Positions 2,802 through 19,632 of a stretch of 20,704 bases of DNA are shown here, piece after piece (position 1 is the first letter of the stretch; each line of letters begins with the position of its first letter). The position numbers were made by a program, and so were the translations under genes. A model generated the notes under the pieces. It ran no database searches, had not been told where the DNA came from, and worked only from the letters and a program-made list of their open reading frames with translations. Source of the stretch: a virus. The stretch covers positions 1 to 20,704 of the IMG/VR virus record IMGVR_UViG_3300023184_003746. The stretch is one strand, 5' to 3'.

Positions 2802-4877
2802 TTACTCACCACCACCTGTGGTAAGATATGCTGTTGTGTTTCTTGGTCCTCCGCTGGTTGAACCACCTCTTACTGGCATTCCGCCATATTGTTGTTGTTG
2901 ATTATCCAATTCACCTCCTGGCATAGATACCCCACCACCAGCACCACTACCGCCGTTTGATACTGGCGTTGCTAATTTGTTGTGCACCAATATACCATTT
3001 GCATAATACGTATGATTTCCTTCAATGGTTAAATTGTAAGTCTGAATTGGAACTAATGTTATTATAGGACTGATTGAATATATTGCCACTGCTTCATCGG
3101 AAGTATTTAATACTAAGTCGCCATCTACTAATTCAGCAACTTCCATTTGGTGTACTTCTTTTGTTTTAACGGGATTGTATGATGCCCAACCTTTACCCAC
3201 TACAAATAATGGGTGATCCGTTGTACACTCTATTGATTCATTATTCAATTCTATTGAAATAATATCGGAACTAATAGGACGAATCAAATCAGTTACTATG
3301 CCTGCTTCTTGTTGTCCACTTTGCTCATTCCACGTTAGAACTTCCATACCTGTCACTACCTCTTCAATTGCTATTTTAGCACCATTTGCGAGCGTTACAA
3401 GCGTTCCTTCTACAAAGCAACCACCGGTTGATGTGGTTGAGCTGGGAGTTGTTGTTACTACATGTGGAGTAGGGGTTGTTGTTACCACCGGCGGAGTTTG
3501 TGTTATTACTTTTGGTGTAGCTACGGTAACTGGCGAAGGCGTTGGTGCCATTTCACTTACATCAAGAGTATTACAAGCTTTTGTTTTTGTAAACTCCCAA
3601 TCAACCGCCGGATATTGTGCTGTTTTGGAAGCTAATCCCTGTGGTGTATCATCTGCTTGAACTCTATTTTGAATATTATTAGCTGAAACAGAGCCATCTT
3701 GTGCACATACTGTTATCGTTTTTCCCATAGCTATAGATTTCTGAACCTCTGTACCCGTTACGTCTACGAATTTAACTATAATTGTATTTTTACTACTAAA
3801 ATTTCTAATAGTATATTCAAAATTACTTTTACTAGTTGGTATTGATATATTTTGAGGAAATATTGGCGGTGTAGGAGTTGGCGCTGGATATACTAAAGTA
3901 GCTGGTTTTGTTTGTGTAGCAAACTCATTTAAATTATTTTGTACATTCTTTGTCAATTCTACTACTTTAAACTCCGTAGGTACTTCCTTTATTAGTATAG
4001 ATCTACGCTTTAAAAAGTATGAATTATATTCTATACAATTAAAAAGTATTTTTTCCATTTCACCAATTATCATAGAAAATTCATATTGCTCACAATCTAT
4101 AAAACGAGTCTCAGCTTGCTTTGAGAAATTGGATTCACGTATATCATAGTACCTATTGGATAAATAGTTGGTAACAGATTCTTTAAAATCAGAGTATATT
4201 TTTGTTCTAAATACATTAAAATCTTTTATACCAAAATCATTTTTAATTGTATTAAAAAAATCCTTACCAAATTTAGTTTCCAATGCCGAATTAATAGAAT
4301 CAAGAACATTTTTTTCAATAGAAGTTAATGAATCCAAAATACTACGTTTATAGTATTTAAAATCTTTATTTAAATTTTGAAGATTATTTAAATCATTTGT
4401 ATTGAGATTTGATATATTAGTATCTGCCGTTTTTAATGGTAGTATTCTAATTTCATTCTTTGACGGTGATATTTCTTGAATCCAAACACGTCTCATTTCA
4501 TTTTCATTACCAACTCTACTACGAACAAAGTTTATATTAGTACGTAGAATGCCATTATGGAATCCCAAATCCTTTAATATTTTTTCAATATCAATTGCCA
4601 ATTCTTTTTGGCCGCCCTTATTTGTTACATTATAAAGGTAATGTTTAATATTGCCTGATTTGATATATGCAATACTATCACCTGTTTTATTTGGTAATAA
4701 ATTATTATTTATATCATACACCGATACTTCCATAACATCGTATGCACAATCACCAAAATCAGCTTCTTCAACTTCTCCTTTTGTAACTATGACAAAATCC
4801 TTATCCTCAATAAATTTACCCTCATTGGTGCCTTTCTGATCTATCTTATCAAAATTTTTATATTTCTTAATACTCAT
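2802..4877 (-). CDS. Tail/virion protein with embedded Hint (intein-like) autoprocessing domain
   Basis: The protein has 691 aa and an ATG start; the upstream gene ends 2 nt before it. Residues about 1-150 form a beta-rich domain containing VRSRVGNEN and WIQEISPSKNEIRILPL, a pattern I recall from tail-fibre-type proteins of marine phages. Residues about 160-320 are helical and charged. Residues about 340-440 look like a beta domain (FEYTIRNFSSKNTIIVKFVD). A Pro/Thr linker with a near-repeat of PVVTTTP/HVVTTTP follows (about 443-485), then a Hint domain at 487-633 (described separately). The tail of 58 residues is Gly/Gln/Ser-rich. The gene sits in the tail operon between a coiled-coil fibre-like gene and the large virion gene. 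What is seen: linker plus Hint plus glycine-rich tail. Inferred: a tail protein that may cleave itself, separating the adhesin-like N-terminal part from the C-terminal tail. Confidence 0.8.
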   Translation of the reverse strand: MSIKKYKNFDKIDQKGTNEGKFIEDKDFVIVTKGEVEEADFGDCAYDVMEVSVYDINNNLLPNKTGDSIAYIKSGNIKHYLYNVTNKGGQKELAIDIEKILKDLGFHNGILRTNINFVRSRVGNENEMRRVWIQEISPSKNEIRILPLKTADTNISNLNTNDLNNLQNLNKDFKYYKRSILDSLTSIEKNVLDSINSALETKFGKDFFNTIKNDFGIKDFNVFRTKIYSDFKESVTNYLSNRYYDIRESNFSKQAETRFIDCEQYEFSMIIGEMEKILFNCIEYNSYFLKRRSILIKEVPTEFKVVELTKNVQNNLNEFATQTKPATLVYPAPTPTPPIFPQNISIPTSKSNFEYTIRNFSSKNTIIVKFVDVTGTEVQKSIAMGKTITVCAQDGSVSANNIQNRVQADDTPQGLASKTAQYPAVDWEFTKTKACNTLDVSEMAPTPSPVTVATPKVITQTPPVVTTTPTPHVVTTTPSSTTSTGGCFVEGTLVTLANGAKIAIEEVVTGMEVLTWNEQSGQQEAGIVTDLIRPISSDIISIELNNESIECTTDHPLFVVGKGWASYNPVKTKEVHQMEVAELVDGDLVLNTSDEAVAIYSISPIITLVPIQTYNLTIEGNHTYYANGILVHNKLATPVSNGGSGAGGGVSMPGGELDNQQQQYGGMPVRGGSTSGGPRNTTAYLTTGGGE
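2979..3419 (-). other. Hint / bacterial intein-like domain (no endonuclease)
   Basis: These bases encode residues 487-633 of the host protein. The domain begins with Cys487 (CFVEGTLVTLANG, intein block A) and has block B TTDHPLF with His555. It ends ILVHN (His632-Asn633), the penultimate His plus terminal Asn used for C-terminal cleavage. The size of about 147 aa leaves no room for a homing endonuclease. The +1 residue is Lys634, not Cys/Ser/Thr, so conventional splicing is not expected. In bacterial intein-like and hedgehog-type Hint domains this arrangement typically gives N- and/or C-terminal cleavage. All key catalytic residues appear intact. Confidence 0.85.
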
Positions 4878-6073: not shown

Positions 6074-7188
6074 TATTCTTCTATTTCAAAAATTAATTTA
6101 TCATCTATAATAGTAGATATACCATCTTCAACTATTTTTAGTTTTAGATGATATGTACGTTTCATTGGTAATGTTTCTAAATCCATAACAAAGTAGTTAC
6201 TTATGGAATCACAGCTTACCTTTGTATAATCTCCAAACGGAAATACGATTTCTCCTGTTATATAATCTTCTAACTGATAATAAGTAGTTTCTGGCAAATA
6301 TTTTGCTTGGTCGTATTCAAAAGTTGTTCCGAATGATTTTTGTGGGTATTTATCTCTACCTTTAACTCTAATTTTAACTTTACTATCTTTTACATATTTT
6401 GTTTTAAAATTTGTTAGAACAACTTTATACCCATCTTCGGCTGAACCCGTAACCGGTTCTAAACTACCCGTATTAAATACACTATCATCCCAAGTTATTT
6501 CTAATTTTGGTTCGTATATTGTATTCGTTTCTTTTGAAAAGAATTTAAGAACACCATAATCTAACTGGTCTTCTTCATTTTCTAAACCATGCCTTAATAT
6601 TAATCCATTATTAGTAAACTCATTATATATCCAACCATTAACTATATCAGTAATATCCATACGAATATCATCCCTTTCGTAACTATAATGTTGAGAAGCT
6701 TCATATGGTATGTACCAAACCCCACCTTCTGCGTTAGCAGACCCGGTTAGATATGGTTCATAAACTGCACTACCACCAAATGTATTTTCTTGCCACCTAT
6801 TAATACCATTACGGTATCTCCAACTAACACCCTGTTCGATTGTTCCTGATAAAGGTGAACTACCTGTAAGAAACCCATCAAATTTTGTACCACGCCCCAT
6901 ATCCCAACTTTCCGATACAGCATTTGCATATATCGTATATTCCATTGGTATTCCTTCTGATCTAGCTGATTTTAAATTGATATATGCTTTCCAATCATTG
7001 CCCATTTCGCCTGAATCAACTGAAGCTGATAGCGAACTCATATCAATCTTAATAAGAGATCTATATACATCACGAGTATCACCATAGAAAACTTTACCAA
7101 TCTCCAGTATTTCATCACGACCTGCGTTATGAGTTGGTTGTTGTAAGTAAATTGATGAATCGTATAGTACTTTATAAAATTTATGCAT
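6073..7188 (-). CDS. Tail structural protein with DNRLRE-like beta-sandwich
   Basis: The protein has 371 aa and a 1-nt overlap with the genes on both sides. Residues 41-52 read VYRSLIKIDMSS and residues 178-200 read DITDIVNGWIYNEFTNNGLI, followed by YGVLKFFSKE and PKLEITW at about 211-233. This order (RsLIkFD..., D-v-T-xx-v-xxW, N-G-l-l-L, then F-S-re and P-x-L-x-v) matches the DNRLRE/CBM96-type domain known from surface and wall-associated bacterial proteins and phage structural proteins. Residues about 235-371 form a second beta-rich domain (KVVLTNFKTKYVKDSKVKIRVKGR). No transmembrane segment is seen. It lies directly downstream of gp6, where T4-like phages carry further baseplate or fibre components. 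A baseplate/fibre role with possible glycan contact is inferred. Confidence 0.7.
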   Translation of the reverse strand: MHKFYKVLYDSSIYLQQPTHNAGRDEILEIGKVFYGDTRDVYRSLIKIDMSSLSASVDSGEMGNDWKAYINLKSARSEGIPMEYTIYANAVSESWDMGRGTKFDGFLTGSSPLSGTIEQGVSWRYRNGINRWQENTFGGSAVYEPYLTGSANAEGGVWYIPYEASQHYSYERDDIRMDITDIVNGWIYNEFTNNGLILRHGLENEEDQLDYGVLKFFSKETNTIYEPKLEITWDDSVFNTGSLEPVTGSAEDGYKVVLTNFKTKYVKDSKVKIRVKGRDKYPQKSFGTTFEYDQAKYLPETTYYQLEDYITGEIVFPFGDYTKVSCDSISNYFVMDLETLPMKRTYHLKLKIVEDGISTIIDDKLIFEIEE

Positions 7189-9212
7189 TAAATGGCCCTC
7201 CCTTTTATGTCTTTATTTGGATATTTTATTTCAAAGATACACGGATCTAATGATGGGTAAATAATTTTACCTATTGTAGCTTGCGGTATATTATATTTGT
7301 TTGGTGAATAATTACCATCCCCACCACATAGATTACTAATCTCCACGTGTGGTACACTCATAACTCCTTCTACATTTGCTAATATCAATTCTAATTCCGA
7401 TATGTTTATTGGTTTATTAAATGTCCACTTATCTATATCAAAGTAGTCTTGCATTTCAGTTATACATTTAGTAAGAACCTCTCTTTTATTATAATTTGAA
7501 TATACGATTATTTCAAAGTCTAAACCTATATTTACTATATATCCATTTAATATATTAACAGCATCTGTCAACATGCGATATTCGCCTAAGTATGTTTTAA
7601 TATTTTGTTTAACTGCATCATTTGCATTTGTTAGTTTTTTATTAATATCATATGATAATACATACATATTTACTGCAAATGGATTGGATGTTTGCGAAAC
7701 ATCAATAACTGTTTTTGTTAGATATTTTTTTAATTCCTTTTGTATATCCGATTTAGACATACCCTTCATACTATCTACTAAATTTGTAAATTCAGCTATA
7801 GTTTTAGGATTGGATAATACGGCTGATACCGAATTACCATCCATCTCAGCATCGGGAGAAACGTATACTTTTGCAACACTACCATACCTAGATGGCATTG
7901 CTAATGTTCTAACAATATAATCCTGCCTAGTTACTGCACGATTTTGAGAACCAAACATTGCTAAAGCGTTCTGACGAATTTCCTCAATACTCTCACCACC
8001 TCTACCACCAACCGCAGGCTCCAAATTCTCAACAGCAACCGATGTTTTAGCCGCTTGGTATATTGGAAGACTTTCTATTGAAAGTAAATCTTCTTCATAC
8101 TCTATTTTTTTTATTGTAATTAAATCGCCAACATTTACATTCGATTCCACACCGCCTCCTACTAAATATTTGATAGATAATACCTTACCGGCCGGCGCCA
8201 CACCAAATGTATTTGTTTTTAAGAAATTAGATGGGTCTATTGCTCCATTGTTAAGTCTATTAATAGAATTTGCTAATCCCATTCCAATATTTTTTGAATT
8301 TGGTAGGATTATTTCATCATTCATAAGTACATTACCAGATCCAAATTGTATATCAAATGTATTATCAGAATTTACTTTAACTGAAAATCTTTTTGGAACT
8401 TTTTTAACTTCCAATATATAAGGAACACTATCTACATAATTTGTAAATTTACCATTTGCAGCTGTGTTTGGATTTTCTACAAAAATACTTTCTTGTGCCA
8501 AATACGGAACTTCATAATATGGTTCATTAGAACTTTGTTCTGTTATGGAAACTACACCTATCAGCTTACTATCAGATAGTGTGGTAGTTGGGTAATCAGT
8601 AGCATTTGTTGGAAACGATACTGTAGTTTCTATTTGCTTTGCCGATATTGCTTTTATTCTTTTAGTATATAGGAAAAAGTCTGGCTGACCCGTTTGTGTA
8701 TCTCTACTATACACTGTTATTTCTCTATCTGCCGGATCCGAAAAATCCAATGAATCCGTTGTTCTAAATATTATTTCCGAATTTAATGTTGATGATACTT
8801 CCATCCCATCTTTTATACGTAAACAATATCTTTCATCTGGCATATTAGCTGTGCCTGAACCAATCGCAGGTACAAGTTGATAAACTGTTAGATTTGTTAC
8901 AGCCGGAGTAGATACCTTTGGTTTATATCCTATAGCTTGAGCCAATGCTACAACATTCTTACGTTCCGTTGCATGTGCTAACATTGATTCCTTTAATTGT
9001 ACATCCTGATAAAATGATAGTACGTCGCCAATGTATGATGCCATTTCAATAAACACCATACCAGGCGAAGCTTCATTGAAATCGGAATATGTATCTGGAA
9101 AATATGCTTTAGTAAAATCAATAAGATTTCTTCTATATTCGGCAAAATCCTTACCTACATAATTTATAGTCTTATTATTACCCCAGGATTTCTTTGTAGT
9201 TTTAATGGCCAT
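7188..9212 (-). CDS. Baseplate wedge protein, T4 gp6-like (baseplate J family)
   Basis: The protein has 674 aa, close to the roughly 660 aa of T4 gp6. The N-terminus carries the recognisable gp6 signature: GKDFAEYRRNLIDFTKAYFP, SDFNEASPGMVFIEMASYIG, DVLSFYQDVQLKESMLAHAT and RKNVVALAQAIGYKPK. The centre has the baseplate-J-type region with RQNALAMFGSQNRAVTRQDY (near residues 410-435) followed by YGSVAKVYVSPD. gp6 dimers join the wedges of the hexagonal baseplate that triggers tail-sheath contraction. The start is ATG, 8 nt after the gp25-like gene, and the stop overlaps the next gene by 1 nt. The gp25-gp6 order is that of T4-like and other contractile injection systems. This is one of the most secure calls in the window. 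Confidence 0.95.
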   Translation of the reverse strand: MAIKTTKKSWGNNKTINYVGKDFAEYRRNLIDFTKAYFPDTYSDFNEASPGMVFIEMASYIGDVLSFYQDVQLKESMLAHATERKNVVALAQAIGYKPKVSTPAVTNLTVYQLVPAIGSGTANMPDERYCLRIKDGMEVSSTLNSEIIFRTTDSLDFSDPADREITVYSRDTQTGQPDFFLYTKRIKAISAKQIETTVSFPTNATDYPTTTLSDSKLIGVVSITEQSSNEPYYEVPYLAQESIFVENPNTAANGKFTNYVDSVPYILEVKKVPKRFSVKVNSDNTFDIQFGSGNVLMNDEIILPNSKNIGMGLANSINRLNNGAIDPSNFLKTNTFGVAPAGKVLSIKYLVGGGVESNVNVGDLITIKKIEYEEDLLSIESLPIYQAAKTSVAVENLEPAVGGRGGESIEEIRQNALAMFGSQNRAVTRQDYIVRTLAMPSRYGSVAKVYVSPDAEMDGNSVSAVLSNPKTIAEFTNLVDSMKGMSKSDIQKELKKYLTKTVIDVSQTSNPFAVNMYVLSYDINKKLTNANDAVKQNIKTYLGEYRMLTDAVNILNGYIVNIGLDFEIIVYSNYNKREVLTKCITEMQDYFDIDKWTFNKPINISELELILANVEGVMSVPHVEISNLCGGDGNYSPNKYNIPQATIGKIIYPSLDPCIFEIKYPNKDIKGRAI

Positions 9213-9220
9213 TTTGTTCT

Positions 9221-9661
9221 TTAGTTATTAGTTACATTTAATGTTATTGAATCCGACATATTTGGATTAGATGCTAATGAAAACTTTATATCTAAAATTA
9301 TTGTATTACTATCTATATCCTGTTCATCGTAATCAAATAGTATTTCATCAACATTTAAATAGGGTAGCCAGATATTGACAGCATCTATTATTGTTGATTC
9401 AATTCTATTATCAATTTCTCCTTCTATAATCGGTTCAAACAGTAATTTCCAAATATCACATCCAAAATCAGGCTGTGCTACCCTTTCTCCTTTTTTTGTA
9501 AGAATTAAATTTATTAAATTACTTTTGGCTTGTTTTAGTGTTGTATAATTTGTAGCAAACGGACCGCCTGAATTAGAAGCAGTATTAATAGCTATTCCCA
9601 GTATTCTGTGGGCGTTATCAACTAAGTCATTTGTATTGACATTACCTAAATTTATTGCCAT
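9221..9661 (-). CDS. Baseplate wedge protein, gp25-like
   Basis: The protein has 146 aa, against about 132 in T4 gp25. The diagnostic core is LILTKKGERVAQPDFGCDIW followed by KLLFEPI. This is the GPW/gp25 fold, in which a short loop with conserved Gly-Glu-Arg and Phe-Glu-Pro residues marks the family. In contractile tails and T6SS it forms the core wedge bundle and contacts the first sheath ring, initiating sheath polymerisation. The gene is directly upstream of gp6, the usual order. The start ATG is 3 nt past the preceding stop. No enzymatic role is expected. Confidence 0.93.
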   Translation of the reverse strand: MAINLGNVNTNDLVDNAHRILGIAINTASNSGGPFATNYTTLKQAKSNLINLILTKKGERVAQPDFGCDIWKLLFEPIIEGEIDNRIESTIIDAVNIWLPYLNVDEILFDYDEQDIDSNTIILDIKFSLASNPNMSDSITLNVTNN

Positions 9662-13386: not shown

Positions 13387-14022
13387 TTAAACTATTTCGT
13401 AACCTTGTAAAAAATATTCGTTTGCTTTTTTATACTTCACTTCAACAAATTCGTTGGTAGGCGATTTCATCAAAATCTTTTCATTGCGGCCGTATTTGTT
13501 TTTGTTTTCAACGGTCGTTGTATATACCCTATCACGAATTGTCATACCGTCTAAATGATCTATCTCATGCTGAACAATGGTTGTGAGAAGTGTTTCATCC
13601 GATACTTGATTATCTTTTCCATCATTTTCTGGATTTATTTCAAAAGTCAATTCACCCAAATTATCAGTTTGTACTTTGATTTTTGTAAACCTAACTGTTC
13701 TTAATGGTATATCCATAGTTTTTGGAATAGAAAGACACCCTTCATAAAACACATATAGTTCATTTGATGTTTCTGTAATCATTGGATTTAATAAAAATAT
13801 TTCAGTATCTCTTACGTTTATAAGACATGCTCGTTTTTTAATTCCGATTTGTGTAGCTGCTATACCTAACCCAGGATATTGTTTTAAAGCTTCTGCTAAT
13901 GTAGCATGTAGTGAGTCCGCTTCTTTTTGTGTAAATTCACTTTTTAATACGGGGGTTTTTAAATATTCCGTAAATTCTGGATTGGTTAATCCGCCTTTTG
14001 TCTTGTTTGTAATTAATTTCAT
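13387..14022 (-). CDS. def: Peptide deformylase
   Basis: The protein has 211 aa. It removes the formyl group from the N-terminal methionine of nascent proteins, a metal-dependent reaction on the ribosome. All three family motifs are present: motif I GLGIAATQIG (51-60), motif II EGCLSIP with metal ligand Cys96, and motif III HEIDHLDG with ligands His152 and His156 and catalytic Glu153. Motif I has Thr where cellular enzymes usually have Pro (AAPQ). An Asp/Asn-rich insertion of about 15 residues lies between motifs II and III, and a C-terminal extension of about 45 residues follows motif III. The leader AAAACAAATT directly precedes the ATG, 9 nt after the UvdE stop. Phage deformylases are known in marine phages and are thought to boost processing of phage-encoded proteins. 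Confidence 0.93.
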   Translation of the reverse strand: MKLITNKTKGGLTNPEFTEYLKTPVLKSEFTQKEADSLHATLAEALKQYPGLGIAATQIGIKKRACLINVRDTEIFLLNPMITETSNELYVFYEGCLSIPKTMDIPLRTVRFTKIKVQTDNLGELTFEINPENDGKDNQVSDETLLTTIVQHEIDHLDGMTIRDRVYTTTVENKNKYGRNEKILMKSPTNEFVEVKYKKANEYFLQGYEIV

Positions 14023-14031
14023 AATTTGTTT

Positions 14032-14931
14032 TTAATTTATAAATGGTAATATTGCTAACTCTTTAGCTTTTGCTTCCACCATAATATCCACATCCATTTC
14101 ATATGTGTTTGGTAATTCCGTAATATAATCGGAATGAGCTTGTGGTTTAAGTTTGTTATTATTTTCGTGAATAGATTTTGATTCGGAATAGTGTACTACT
14201 GGTGTAATATAATTCGGATAAAACGGCCACGTTGAAGCTGCTGCATTTAGTGCTTGCTCTTCTGTCCAATCACCTGTATTGAATTTGTGGTGATGATAAT
14301 CAAATACAATCGGAATACCTATCTTATCATGTAGATACATCAAATCCCTAACTGAATACATTGATGCCTTATCATCATTCTCAACTGTAAGCCTACTTTG
14401 AACCGATTTAGAGAGCTTTCCAAAGTTCTCACAAAATCTATCCATTGCTTTGATTTTATCCCCATAAACTCCGTTACAATGGATATTAATCTTATTGTAA
14501 GGCGATTTCTCTAATCCCATCATATCAAATATCTTACCATGCAATTCTAAATCACATATTGAGTTGTAAACTACGTTTTCTTTTGGAGAAGTTAATACAA
14601 CGAATGGACCTGGATGCGATGTGATACGAATACCATTCGCTTTTGCATAATCACCGGCTTCTTTAAGTGCTGATTTAATCGCTTTGTAATCTTTGAGTTG
14701 CGTAAGGTCTAACTTATCACCCCAAGGAACGATTGCTGAAGAAAGACGAAAGAAATTAATCTTATTCTCTTTATTCCATTGTAAGATTTTAATGATGTCT
14801 CTTGCGTTTAGCAGAGTTAGTTCGGAAACATAGTCCAAACCTTTAGCGTTGAATGTTCGTTTGACCATTGAACGATTTGTGGTAACTTTCTTACCCATTG
14901 TCATGTTAATACAAGCATATCCTATATTCAT
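14032..14931 (-). CDS. uvdE: UV-damage endonuclease (UvdE/Uve1 family)
   Basis: The protein has 299 aa, near the usual length of bacterial UvdE. UvdE is a TIM-barrel, metal-dependent nuclease that nicks DNA 5' of cyclobutane dimers and 6-4 photoproducts and so starts an excision repair independent of UvrABC. Family landmarks in order: IGYACINMTM (N-terminus), NFFRLSSAIVPWG (59-71), ITSHPGPFVVL with His106, NIHCNGVYGDK with His151, RLTVENDD with Glu184, IPIVFDYHHHKFN with Asp211 and the His cluster, VVHYSES with His247, and His266. These are the expected metal-ligand positions. The start follows a strong promoter-like site with a leader of only about 15 nt. As first gene of its operon it would be expressed with deformylase and the sigma factor. 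Marine or light-exposed lifestyle is suggested, not proven. Confidence 0.92.
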   Translation of the reverse strand: MNIGYACINMTMGKKVTTNRSMVKRTFNAKGLDYVSELTLLNARDIIKILQWNKENKINFFRLSSAIVPWGDKLDLTQLKDYKAIKSALKEAGDYAKANGIRITSHPGPFVVLTSPKENVVYNSICDLELHGKIFDMMGLEKSPYNKINIHCNGVYGDKIKAMDRFCENFGKLSKSVQSRLTVENDDKASMYSVRDLMYLHDKIGIPIVFDYHHHKFNTGDWTEEQALNAAASTWPFYPNYITPVVHYSESKSIHENNNKLKPQAHSDYITELPNTYEMDVDIMVEAKAKELAILPFIN

Positions 14932-16214: not shown

Positions 16215-16604
16215 CTAAAATTTAATAGATAATTTTTTTGGTTTTTGTGCCTCTTTTTTCTCAACAAGAATAGTAATTATACCATTCTTAATTTCCGCTT
16301 TAGCAGTAAGGCCATCGTATTCTTTTGATAGGTTCAATGTTTCATCAATATCAAATACGAATTGGTTTGCAACATTTTTATTGTCCTTATCTTTTGTAGC
16401 TCTAATATTAATTTGGTCTTCTGTTAGGCTAACTTCTACATTCTTTGGGTCGTGTCCGATGACTGATAATGCTAATTCAATTGCATCATCTTTTAAATCA
16501 ACCACTGCTTTTGTAGGTACATAACTTGTATGTTTTTTTGGCTCACCCATCCAAGGGTCTTTCATAAATTCATTAAGAACTTTTTCTAAATTGTAGTAAT
16601 ACAT
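16215..16604 (-). CDS. Hsp20 / alpha-crystallin small heat-shock protein
   Basis: The protein has 129 aa. The alpha-crystallin domain spans about 33-120: DDAIELALSVIGHDPKNVEV, then LTEDQINIRATKD, and the hallmark YDGLTAKAEIKNGIITILVE with the A-x-x-x-N-G-[IV]-[IL]-x-I signature. The C-terminus KPKKLSIKF offers an I-x-[IV]-like anchor used in oligomer assembly. It is an ATP-independent holdase that binds unfolding proteins. Phage Hsp20 genes are known from T4-like cyanophages. The gene is monocistronic: a possible promoter and the leader AAAACAAAAATCT lie upstream and a terminator lies downstream. The N-terminal arm (about 30 residues, YYNLEKVLNEFMKDPWMG) is short. Confidence 0.92.
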   Translation of the reverse strand: MYYYNLEKVLNEFMKDPWMGEPKKHTSYVPTKAVVDLKDDAIELALSVIGHDPKNVEVSLTEDQINIRATKDKDNKNVANQFVFDIDETLNLSKEYDGLTAKAEIKNGIITILVEKKEAQKPKKLSIKF

Positions 16605-16642
16605 AGATTTTTGTTTTGGTTAAATAATTTCACTATATTGTT

Positions 16643-16675
16643 CAATAACTATACCATTTTAAAAATACTGACAAA
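16643..16675 (-). promoter_or_regulatory. Possible promoter for hsp20
   Basis: In the 93-nt gap upstream of hsp20 the sense strand has TTTG (16675-16672), 18 nt, then TATAGTTATTG (16653-16643). The spacing fits the Bacteroidota -33/-7 layout, but the -7 element is imperfect and it is not similar to the two repeated promoters in its flanks. I see no clear terminator for the upstream gene in this gap. Confidence 0.4.
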
Positions 16676-16697
16676 GTTACATATAATTCGGACATTA

Positions 16698-17753
16698 TTA
16701 CAATAAATGTGGTTTTGCTTCCGACTGACCTGCATTTGTAACCTGAATATACATTGGTGCATAGTACTTAAGCGAATTTGAACCTGCGTATGATAACGCT
16801 GAACGAACTCCATCAAGTAATCCTTCAACGATATACTTAACTCCGCCTTTATATGGAATTACAGTACTTTCACCTTCAACATTCCTTACTTCTTGTCTGT
16901 GTACCATTTTAGTTTCCAATGATGCCGCACCTCTATATCTTTTATATAAACCATTTGGCTTTTCAATGATAGAACCAGGCGCTTCTTCCGTTCCTGCTAT
17001 AAGAGATCCAATCATTACTGTTGAAGCTCCTAATGCTAGGGCTTTTGCTATATCTCCACTACTACGGATTCCTCCATCGGCCATAACGGGTACCTCAGCC
17101 ATATCACATATAGTTTCAACACAGGTTACATTTGGAATCCCAAATCCGGTCTTAACCCTAGTCGTACATAAACTACCACCGCCAATACCAACTCGTAATC
17201 CATCTGCTCCCCAAGCGGTTAAGTCTTCTGCGGCCAATGCGGTAGCAATATTACCTGCGATTACATCAACAAAATCATTTAATGATTTAATACGCCCTAT
17301 TGCTTCAGCTACGTTCTTATGGTGGCCGTGTGCAACATCAATAAGGATAATGTCTGCTCCTACTTCAACTAATGCTTTGGCTCTTTCATAGTAATCACCA
17401 TTAGCACCTACTGCTGCGGCAATTGGTATTTGTTTTAAATCGGCATGCCAATCATCGTACATAACGCCCCAATTCTCATACATTTCCATAGTACGAGCCG
17501 CTTTCACTTTGGCGACTTCGGCAACCTGCTCTTCAATCGTCATAAATCTATGTATGATACCTAAACCACCTAGCTTCATCATTTCAATCGCCATTTCACT
17601 ATCACATACCGTATCCATTGGCGATGCTATAAGTGGTTGTAACAATCCATAACGACGTGTGACTTGTGTGTGTAATTTAATATTCCGGCGAGAATTAATT
17701 TCGGAATAAGCTGGGATTAGTTGTATATCATCATAGGTCAGTGCTACTTTCAT
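16698..17753 (-). CDS. IMP dehydrogenase / GMP reductase family enzyme lacking CBS domains
   Basis: The protein has 351 aa with a complete TIM barrel. Landmarks: LTYDDIQLIPAYSEI (N-terminus), LIASPMDTVCD (41-51), GGLGIIHRFMTIEEQ (62-75), IDVAHGH (138-144), the catalytic loop GIGGGSLCTTRVKTGFG with Cys196, phosphate-binding MADGGIRSSGD (224-234), and YKRYRG (270-275). Where IMP dehydrogenase carries two CBS domains there is only a stretch of about 23 residues (85-108). The flap after YRG is short and ends NVEGESTVIPYKGG; the Arg-Tyr pair of IMP dehydrogenase is not evident and the length is closer to GMP reductase. So reaction direction is uncertain: IMP to XMP (NAD+) or GMP to IMP (NADPH). 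The ATG overlaps the upstream stop by 1 nt. It would adjust purine pools during phage replication. Confidence 0.88.
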   Translation of the reverse strand: MKVALTYDDIQLIPAYSEINSRRNIKLHTQVTRRYGLLQPLIASPMDTVCDSEMAIEMMKLGGLGIIHRFMTIEEQVAEVAKVKAARTMEMYENWGVMYDDWHADLKQIPIAAAVGANGDYYERAKALVEVGADIILIDVAHGHHKNVAEAIGRIKSLNDFVDVIAGNIATALAAEDLTAWGADGLRVGIGGGSLCTTRVKTGFGIPNVTCVETICDMAEVPVMADGGIRSSGDIAKALALGASTVMIGSLIAGTEEAPGSIIEKPNGLYKRYRGAASLETKMVHRQEVRNVEGESTVIPYKGGVKYIVEGLLDGVRSALSYAGSNSLKYYAPMYIQVTNAGQSEAKPHLL

Positions 17754-18762: not shown

Positions 18763-19584
18763 TTATAAAAATATTTCTTGCTCATTCATTATATATGCTC
18801 TTGCCAAACGGGTCATTCCAATACCTCCGCCGAAACGTGGAAAGAAATCAAATCCTAAAAATTCTTCTAATTCACGCTCCACTCTTTCCTTACCAAACAA
18901 TTCAAATAGTTTGGCCGCATATCCACCTTCGGAAATTGTATAGAATGTATTACGCATTTCATCTACATCACAACTGCGTTCAGCACTACCAATGGTTTCC
19001 TGACCGTAAAGTATAACATCAATTTTATTGAAGATACCATCCCCTTTATGTTTCATATTCCAAAACGGAGAAGTCCTTAATGGAAAATTCTCTAACATAA
19101 TAGAAGAACCATGCTCATTCCACATCATAGTTTCATGCTCCGCTTCTAATATTTTCGTATCATATTGTCCGCAACGTGTATCATAATCAATAGATACTGG
19201 TTGTGCAAATCCTAAATACTCCAATAACTCCAATTCTAATTCTTTTAATGCATCAATCCCACCCTTACTCTCAAATTCAAACATTGGGAATATCATTTCA
19301 TGTCTTCCAGGTATTGGGTCTTTTTCCTGACGATATGATGTTGATATACAAAAACATCCTCGCCAACTTGGGTTTTTAAGTAGTTCATACTCCAACCACA
19401 TCTGACCTGTTTGTGGAAGCGGCCAGACTTCACCATTGTAATTGAATGTTGCTACGGAGTGTGGATTTTCGCATGCAGCAAGAATAGAAAGTCGTGATTG
19501 TGTAGGAACTTCTATAAATCCCTTCATCAGGAAGAACTCTCTCATTAATTGTACCAATTCGTTGTAAACCGATGTGTCTTTCAT
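18763..19584 (-). CDS. Class II aminoacyl-tRNA-synthetase-like catalytic domain (AsnRS/AspRS or AsnA type)
   Basis: The protein has 273 aa from the ATG at 19584, which is preceded by TTAAAACAAAAATT; frames opening further upstream (ATG 19605, TTG 19623) run into the terminator hairpin and are unlikely. Class II motifs: motif 1 GFIEVPTQSR with Pro27; motif 2 SYRQEKDPIPGRHEMIFPMF (83-102) with Arg85, His95 and Glu96; motif 3 GGGIGMTRLAR (252-262) with Arg259. The segment TIGSAERS (197-204) resembles the GSQRE region of AsnRS/AspRS. The N-terminal OB-fold anticodon-binding domain of class IIb synthetases is missing, as in archaeal AsnA-type asparagine synthetases and other synthetase paralogs. 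So it may amidate aspartate, or charge a non-tRNA acceptor, rather than act as a tRNA ligase. Substrate cannot be assigned from sequence alone. Confidence 0.85.
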   Translation of the reverse strand: MKDTSVYNELVQLMREFFLMKGFIEVPTQSRLSILAACENPHSVATFNYNGEVWPLPQTGQMWLEYELLKNPSWRGCFCISTSYRQEKDPIPGRHEMIFPMFEFESKGGIDALKELELELLEYLGFAQPVSIDYDTRCGQYDTKILEAEHETMMWNEHGSSIMLENFPLRTSPFWNMKHKGDGIFNKIDVILYGQETIGSAERSCDVDEMRNTFYTISEGGYAAKLFELFGKERVERELEEFLGFDFFPRFGGGIGMTRLARAYIMNEQEIFL

Positions 19585-19605
19585 AATTTTTGTTTTAATA
19601 AGCAT

Positions 19606-19632
19606 AAAAAAAGGAGAAACCAATTCTCCTTT
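19606..19632 (-). terminator. Intrinsic terminator between small-gene operon and aaRS-like gene
   Basis: On the minus strand AAAGGAGAA pairs perfectly with TTCTCCTTT (9 bp) around TTGGT, with a run of seven T overlapping the end of the stem. It lies 9 nt past the stop of the small basic ORF and about 22 nt before the aaRS-like start. No clear promoter is seen between terminator and gene, so the gene depends on read-through or an unrecognised promoter. Confidence 0.88.

Follow-up and report, generated by a model that had tools for sequence, protein, structure and literature searches.

Type A BIL domains (Amitai 2003 and Dassa 2004, as summarised in PMC4031507 and PMC7765530) combine an N-terminal thioester with Asn cyclisation, and the outcome is mainly cleavage (PMC4031507). 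It was also reported that some type A BILs with a non-nucleophilic +1 residue splice weakly, the freed amino group attacking the thioester (PMC4031507). In Tetrahymena BUBL1, the BIL2 domain is reported to react with the amine of a lysine, giving an isopeptide bond, and to dispense a ubiquitin-like domain to substrates (PMC8616854).

With regard to phages, no description of Hint or BIL domains in virion proteins was found in the open-licence literature, where the papers found cover terminase or replication inteins. For the processing of virion proteins by intein-like chemistry, only scattered 'intein domain' annotations were found in the same literature. As far as that literature shows, Hints in diverse phage virion-type proteins, a class of them with Lys at +1, and bare His-Asn-Lys ends are undescribed. 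New in the present analysis are the Hint as an optional module, the recurrence of Lys at +1 and the intact catalytic set of the Lys+1 class. The starting point is the gene P0001 in a virus record from IMG/VR that is 20,704 bases long and is referred to as the window.

The P0001 gene and its Hint domain

The features of P0001, all on the minus strand of the window, are as follows.

2802..4877, minus: P0001, a 691-aa tail-region protein carrying the Hint (by translation; N-terminal part kept in 45 viral contigs)
3933..4877, minus: conserved N-terminal part, residues ~1-315, common to Hint-bearing and Hint-less homologs
3678..3824, minus: beta-rich domain, residues ~352-400, with a high-confidence model
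3420..3560, minus: Pro/Thr-rich linker, residues ~440-486, ending in Gly485-Gly486 at the predicted N-terminal scissile bond
2979..3419, minus: Hint (BIL) domain, Cys487 to Asn633, 147 aa, no homing endonuclease
3417..3419, minus: Cys487 (Cys1), predicted N-terminal nucleophile, invariant in 29 diverse Hints
3213..3224, minus: block B, T552-T-D-H555, with His555 invariant in 29 diverse Hints
2979..2984, minus: His632-Asn633, predicted C-terminal cleavage site via Asn cyclisation, invariant, which the search pattern partly imposed
2976..2978, minus: Lys634 (+1), recurrent in phage Hints
2805..2978, minus: Gly-rich C-terminal tail, 58 residues, without a recognisable domain

The first-pass annotation had placed a Hint at 2979-3419 (residues 487-633) with Lys at +1, and translation bears this out to the base; the Pro/Thr linker before it and the 58-residue Gly-rich tail after it are also as described there. 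Its label of P0001 as a tail protein agrees with the surrounding genes. A gp25-like baseplate wedge gene (9221-9661) and a gp6-like gene (7188-9212) lie just upstream, and the gene order runs from these two through two conserved proteins (371 and 397 aa) to P0001 and a large open protein; the order is the same in L012 and L013, among other relatives. Because these baseplate wedge genes adjoin it, P0001 is very probably a baseplate or tail component. Its N-terminal part matched no named family in the profile search, and the AF2 model of the full-length protein was poor (pLDDT 53), its sole match in a search of viral models being an unnamed phage homolog with 52% identity. In tblastn with P0001 and with its Hint, no isolate phage with a P0001-type host protein was found, and the surroundings of P0001 are known from uncultured contigs only.

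Elsewhere in the window, 18763-19623 encodes a 286-aa core like that of class II aminoacyl-tRNA synthetases (PF00152), which lacks an anticodon-binding domain, and 13387-14931 and 16215-17753 encode peptide deformylase, UvdE UV endonuclease, Hsp20 and a full-length IMPDH/GMP reductase domain.

The Hint of P0001 contains CFVEGT in block A, TTDH in block B, NHTYYANGILVHN in blocks F/G and VHN in block G. It scores above the curated cut-offs of Pfam PT-HINT (E 2.7e-7), TIGR01443 intein_Cterm (2.1e-7) and TIGR01445 intein_Nterm (1.2e-5), so that the match to Hint families, which the first-pass annotation had left to profile searching, is not a chance one. An AF2 model of the domain, for which 29 diverse Hints were aligned with that of P0001 in first place, has a pLDDT of 91.2 and a pTM of 0.86. 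Its best PDB match in Foldseek is Tetrahymena BIL2 (6Y75, E 4.6e-14, TM 0.84 by query and 0.92 by target); for 6Y75 and 6TMM together, E is ~1e-13 to 1e-14 and TM by target 0.87-0.92. Clostridium CthBIL4 (2lwy) comes second, above every intein, with Hedgehog far lower, and a ranking of PDB relatives by sequence gives the same order as the fold. The Pfam AXH (ataxin-1) model also matches the domain (E 7e-13), as do ataxin-1/HBP1 structures weakly. An AXH identity was put aside, since the other models and the fold describe a full-length Hint; the match may reflect relatedness between AXH and Hint or a contaminated AXH model.

Judged by its sequence, the domain has the features of type A BILs, namely a Hint fold, Cys1, the block-B T-x-x-H, a C-terminal His-Asn, a +1 residue other than Cys, Ser or Thr (Lys634), and a location in a variable region of a non-conserved protein, here a variable C-terminal region, with unrelated host proteins across the class. 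The kind of domain is therefore one already known. A polymorphic toxin was rejected, as the 58-aa Gly-rich tail holds no toxin domain.

The Gly-Gly before Cys-Phe in P0001 is the cleavage site pattern of Hedgehog proteins, and many phage Hints lie at the extreme C terminus, after a Gly run. Such a likeness would suit a transfer reaction in which the thioester at this site is resolved by a small nucleophile (a sterol, lipid, glycan or host surface amine) that becomes joined to the tail protein. However, in Hog proteins a sterol-recognition region takes the place of the C-terminal His-Asn, whereas P0001 keeps His-Asn and has only the Gly-rich tail after the Hint; in Foldseek, Hog structures also come far behind the BILs. 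A Hedgehog-like transfer is thus very unlikely, and a Hedgehog Hog domain was rejected on the retained His-Asn. The first-pass annotation had raised attachment of the N-terminal part to another molecule, which may occur and has a precedent in BIL2 (PMC8616854); a cell-surface acceptor for the thioester, also raised there, is pure speculation.

An optional Hint in the P0001 family

Relatives of P0001 are encoded on 45 contigs, nearly all of which match across the N-terminal part, and the Hint is found on only three of them (L002, L003 and L004). The C-terminal end of the Hint-less homologs consists of a Pro-rich linker and a short tail, usually with a run of Gly between them; in the Hint-bearing homologs, the Gly-rich tail is 17-58 aa long and of low conservation. 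The beta-rich domain of P0001 also occurs in L002-L005 and L012 and is absent from shorter homologs. By the tree, the nearest relative is L005 (73% identity, support 98/93), which shares the beta-rich domain and the Thr/Pro linker with P0001 and has no Hint. At the junction, L005 reads ...VTTTQTTGGGG and P0001 reads ...TTSTGG followed directly by Cys487; the L005 alignment stops at TTGG, the two linkers being homologous as far as the Gly run. At least two gains or losses of the Hint are required by the family tree.

Between P0001 and L002, the Hints share 90% amino acid identity and 34 of 55 four-fold degenerate sites, against 59% and 10 of 33 for the N-terminal 300 aa. Since the Hint is so much closer than the N-terminal part, the Hint and tail appear to have been exchanged as a cassette, which indicates that the Hint moved between lineages as a module. 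L004 was left out for the C-terminal end, where its contig runs into adapter-like sequence. The reading frame at this 3′ end (~7850-7925) finishes in KIGRAHV, which resembles translated Illumina adapter, and an assembly artefact is probable at this end of the contig.

An ordinary intein, that is, a splicing element restoring its host protein, would share the fold and the blocks, and its excision would yield a product like the Hint-less homologs. Such an element should nonetheless have Cys, Ser or Thr at +1, and P0001 has neither this nor a homing endonuclease; its Hint moreover sits in a variable linker at a Gly run and not at a conserved functional site. This reading is accordingly given very little probability, and a canonical (class 1) intein was rejected on Lys+1 and the absent endonuclease.

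Lysine at +1 and the catalytic set in phage Hints

When virus contigs were scanned with a block F/G pattern that left +1 free, most matches had Cys or Ser/Thr (true inteins), as expected, and the most frequent non-nucleophilic residue was Lys. A scan requiring Lys returned at least ~119 stretches; these pattern scans sample a single block F/G motif. Among the matches listed, mini-Hints clustered at 60% identity gave 39 clusters, 23 of them with Lys+1. For clusters not picked for Lys, Lys was present in 8 of the 12 without Cys, Ser or Thr (~2e-7 in a crude binomial with a 7% background, which ignores shared ancestry and is a guide only). A complete scan for ends of the form His-Asn-x-stop found seven with Lys against one with Cys after TGG matches were set aside; the seven proteins form ~4 groups, and some end exactly in ...VHNK-stop. 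The Lys at +1, regarded in the first-pass annotation as a local oddity, is instead a recurring feature of a phage Hint class.

The Lys+1 clusters have 26-46% identity to the Hint of P0001, and their +2 residue varies. Three or more Gly are present among the six residues before Cys1 in 9 of the 23 cluster representatives. Among the matches listed, Lys+1 Hints occur on ~13 host protein families that do not match one another in BLASTP, including a phrog_2048 tail protein (L171), collagen-like proteins (L051), Gly-rich proteins (L244), and DUF4815/phrog_358 proteins (L227 and L224), one with a tail-fibre match. As far as their sequences can be recognised, the host proteins are mostly tail or virion proteins of uncultured phages. 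They have just the Hint in common with P0001, with the exception of L274, which also resembles two genes neighbouring P0001. The block-G pattern turned up only rarely in genomes of Bacteroidota (4 of 297), in C-terminal Hints of Flavobacterium or in +1 Ser insertions in an apparent DNA-polymerase-type protein. As these matches are both rare and of other types, the Lys+1 class is apparently not a common host gene in Bacteroidota.

Several other arrangements were also observed. Flavobacterium proteins of 290-425 aa (L067-L077) carry a C-terminal Hint with no more than 5-9 residues after it, with Tyr, Phe, Ile or Met at +1 and Lys at +2, and two genomes have two side-by-side copies. Tandem arrays of 2-4 Hints are encoded by L268, L203, L205, L209 and relatives (~31 ORFs); they follow an N-terminal part of ~305 aa beginning MSVQT..., the first copy is without Cys1, and the +1 residues are, in order, Ile, Lys, Ser/Thr and Glu. 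A second phage protein family, MKGTFFSADF...LRLLEINTDT (L184, L199, L208, L217, L242, L260, L302 and L307), has 1-3 C-terminal Hints, several of which end exactly in HN-Lys-stop, KK or KV. By eye, this family is possibly ATP-grasp-like; it has no Pfam match outside the Hint.

In the alignment of 29 Hints (26-46% identity to that of P0001), no columns are invariant other than Cys1, the block-B His, an Ala and the terminal His-Asn. The Ala and His-Asn were partly forced by the search pattern, and the invariance of Cys1 partly for some loci and by the choice of seeds; no such selection acted on the block-B His. Cys1 and the block-B His are present in all 83 distinct Lys+1 domains that align to the profile, with Thr (80) or Ser (3) at the block-B Thr position. 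For domains with other non-Cys/Ser/Thr residues at +1, the figures are 34 of 56 for Cys1 and 24 of 56 for the block-B His. From these alignments, the Lys+1 class looks chemically intact, and the other +1 variants, mostly from tandem arrays, look decayed. The self-processing Hint/BIL domain proposed by the first-pass annotation depended on Cys487, His555 and Asn633 being kept in homologs; they are conserved, and together with the fold and motifs they support the predicted activity.

Since some tandem-array Hints have lost Cys1, Hint folds can persist without full activity. The Hint of P0001 might likewise be an unreactive fold serving as a tail spacer or interaction domain, and there is no obvious selection on the tail for release. 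That every alignable Lys+1 domain has kept Cys1 and the block-B His, both invariant at 26-46% identity, argues against such an inactive structural domain, which is considered improbable.

A further reading is that a lysine side-chain amine, of Lys634 or of another virion protein, captures the Gly486 thioester to form a Gly-Gly isopeptide link. The Gly-Gly end resembles that of ubiquitin, which counts in its favour, as do the presence of Lys+1 in ~23 clusters while +2 varies (among the matches listed) and the retention of Lys even as the last residue, seven to one over Cys in the His-Asn-x-stop scan. In addition, the closest solved relative, BIL2, was reported to bond a lysine amine (PMC8616854). 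However, related phage or Flavobacterium Hints can also have Arg, Ala, Tyr or Phe at +1, and Lys is hence not strictly required; the acceptor lysine of BIL2 lies in a flanking ubiquitin-like domain and was not demonstrated at +1, and Pfam finds no ubiquitin-like domain in P0001. Such a capture by lysine is unlikely for P0001. The broader proposal, that Lys+1 phage Hints are built-in protein ligases passing a virion Gly end as a thioester to a lysine amine, whether of the +1 residue or of an adjacent subunit, in an ATP-free, ubiquitin-like covalent link in or on the virion, is slightly less likely still.

Proposed self-processing and comparison with known systems

The Hint of P0001 is probably a type A BIL-like self-processing module on a phage baseplate or tail-region protein, predicted to be lost with hydrolysis or weak splicing. 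We infer the reactions, their order and the fate of the released Gly-Gly end as follows. Placed at the junction of the flexible Pro/Thr linker and the Gly-rich tail, the folded Hint would let Cys487 form a thioester with the carbonyl of Gly486, aided by Thr552 and His555 of block B, and Asn633 would cyclise and cleave ahead of Lys634. The probable net outcome would be loss of the Hint and a mature N-terminal protein ending in ...STGG, either hydrolysed (cleavage) or joined by aminolysis to the tail that begins with Lys634 (weak splicing). Gain and loss of the module would be possible because either product resembles the Hint-less homologs, with a linker, a Gly run and a short tail. The position of the insertion, at a run of Gly, also fits this scheme.

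The first-pass annotation expected no normal splicing and considered two separated fragments in the virion possible. The former stands for the canonical intein route, although the weak splicing by aminolysis reported for type A BILs (PMC4031507) would be available here. Two fragments would be one possible outcome but not the sole one, because weak splicing is open to type A BILs even where a +1 nucleophile is missing (PMC4031507). Many relatives have just 1-24 residues after the Asn, so that the C-terminal half-reaction has no obvious use in them. Loss of the Hint by hydrolysis or splicing leaves unexplained the preference for Lys at +1 and the ends only 1-2 residues past the Asn, both of which a lysine acceptor would account for.

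If the domains are active, many uncultured, often aquatic phages would mature or cross-link virion proteins by intein-like chemistry, and new small self-cleaving or ligating domains would be available for protein engineering. The Lys+1 class, especially the bare His-Asn-Lys ends, offers a sharp and cheap probe of whether BILs use lysine acceptors outside ciliates.

Among known systems, phage NCTB (LT598654: SBV38305, SBV38304 and SBV38301) is similar in having Hints in neighbouring tail genes with short C-terminal tails, a Gly run before Cys1 in two of three, and an SBV38304 that ends in VHNKVD-stop; unlike that of P0001, its Hints are divergent and have Ala at +1 in two of three. The three Hint genes (L340, NCTB 96182-108616) lie in the tail cluster of this 258-kb phage, and the stand-alone 153-aa Hint protein that ends in VHNKVD-stop is without an obvious block A. 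The nearest earlier mentions are the GenBank annotation of these proteins, 'putative phage tail protein, contains intein domain', and entries among the viral models that are named 'Hint domain containing protein' or 'Collagen triple helix repeat'; for NCTB, the literature search found genome annotation and no functional study.

The PT-HINT domains of polymorphic toxins (PMC3482391) are self-processing domains of the same Pfam family (PF07591) and also lie near the C terminus, but the P0001-type Hint is followed by only a 17-58 aa Gly-rich tail and no toxin. BIL2 (6Y75/6TMM) is the best match in both sequence and structure and is likewise a Hint without the usual +1 nucleophile, and Gly-rich acceptor chemistry is conceivable for P0001 too. 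BIL2 has ubiquitin-like flanks and a flanking-domain lysine, whereas P0001 is flanked by the Pro/Thr linker and the Gly-rich tail. With type A BILs and CthBIL4 (2lwy), P0001 shares a mini-Hint of ~140-150 aa with Cys1, TxxH and His-Asn, no +1 nucleophile, and a position in the variable part of a variable protein. The type A BILs summarised in PMC4031507 and PMC7765530 belong to bacterial, often secreted, proteins, whereas the Hint of P0001 lies on a phage baseplate or tail-region protein and belongs to a class with recurring Lys at +1.
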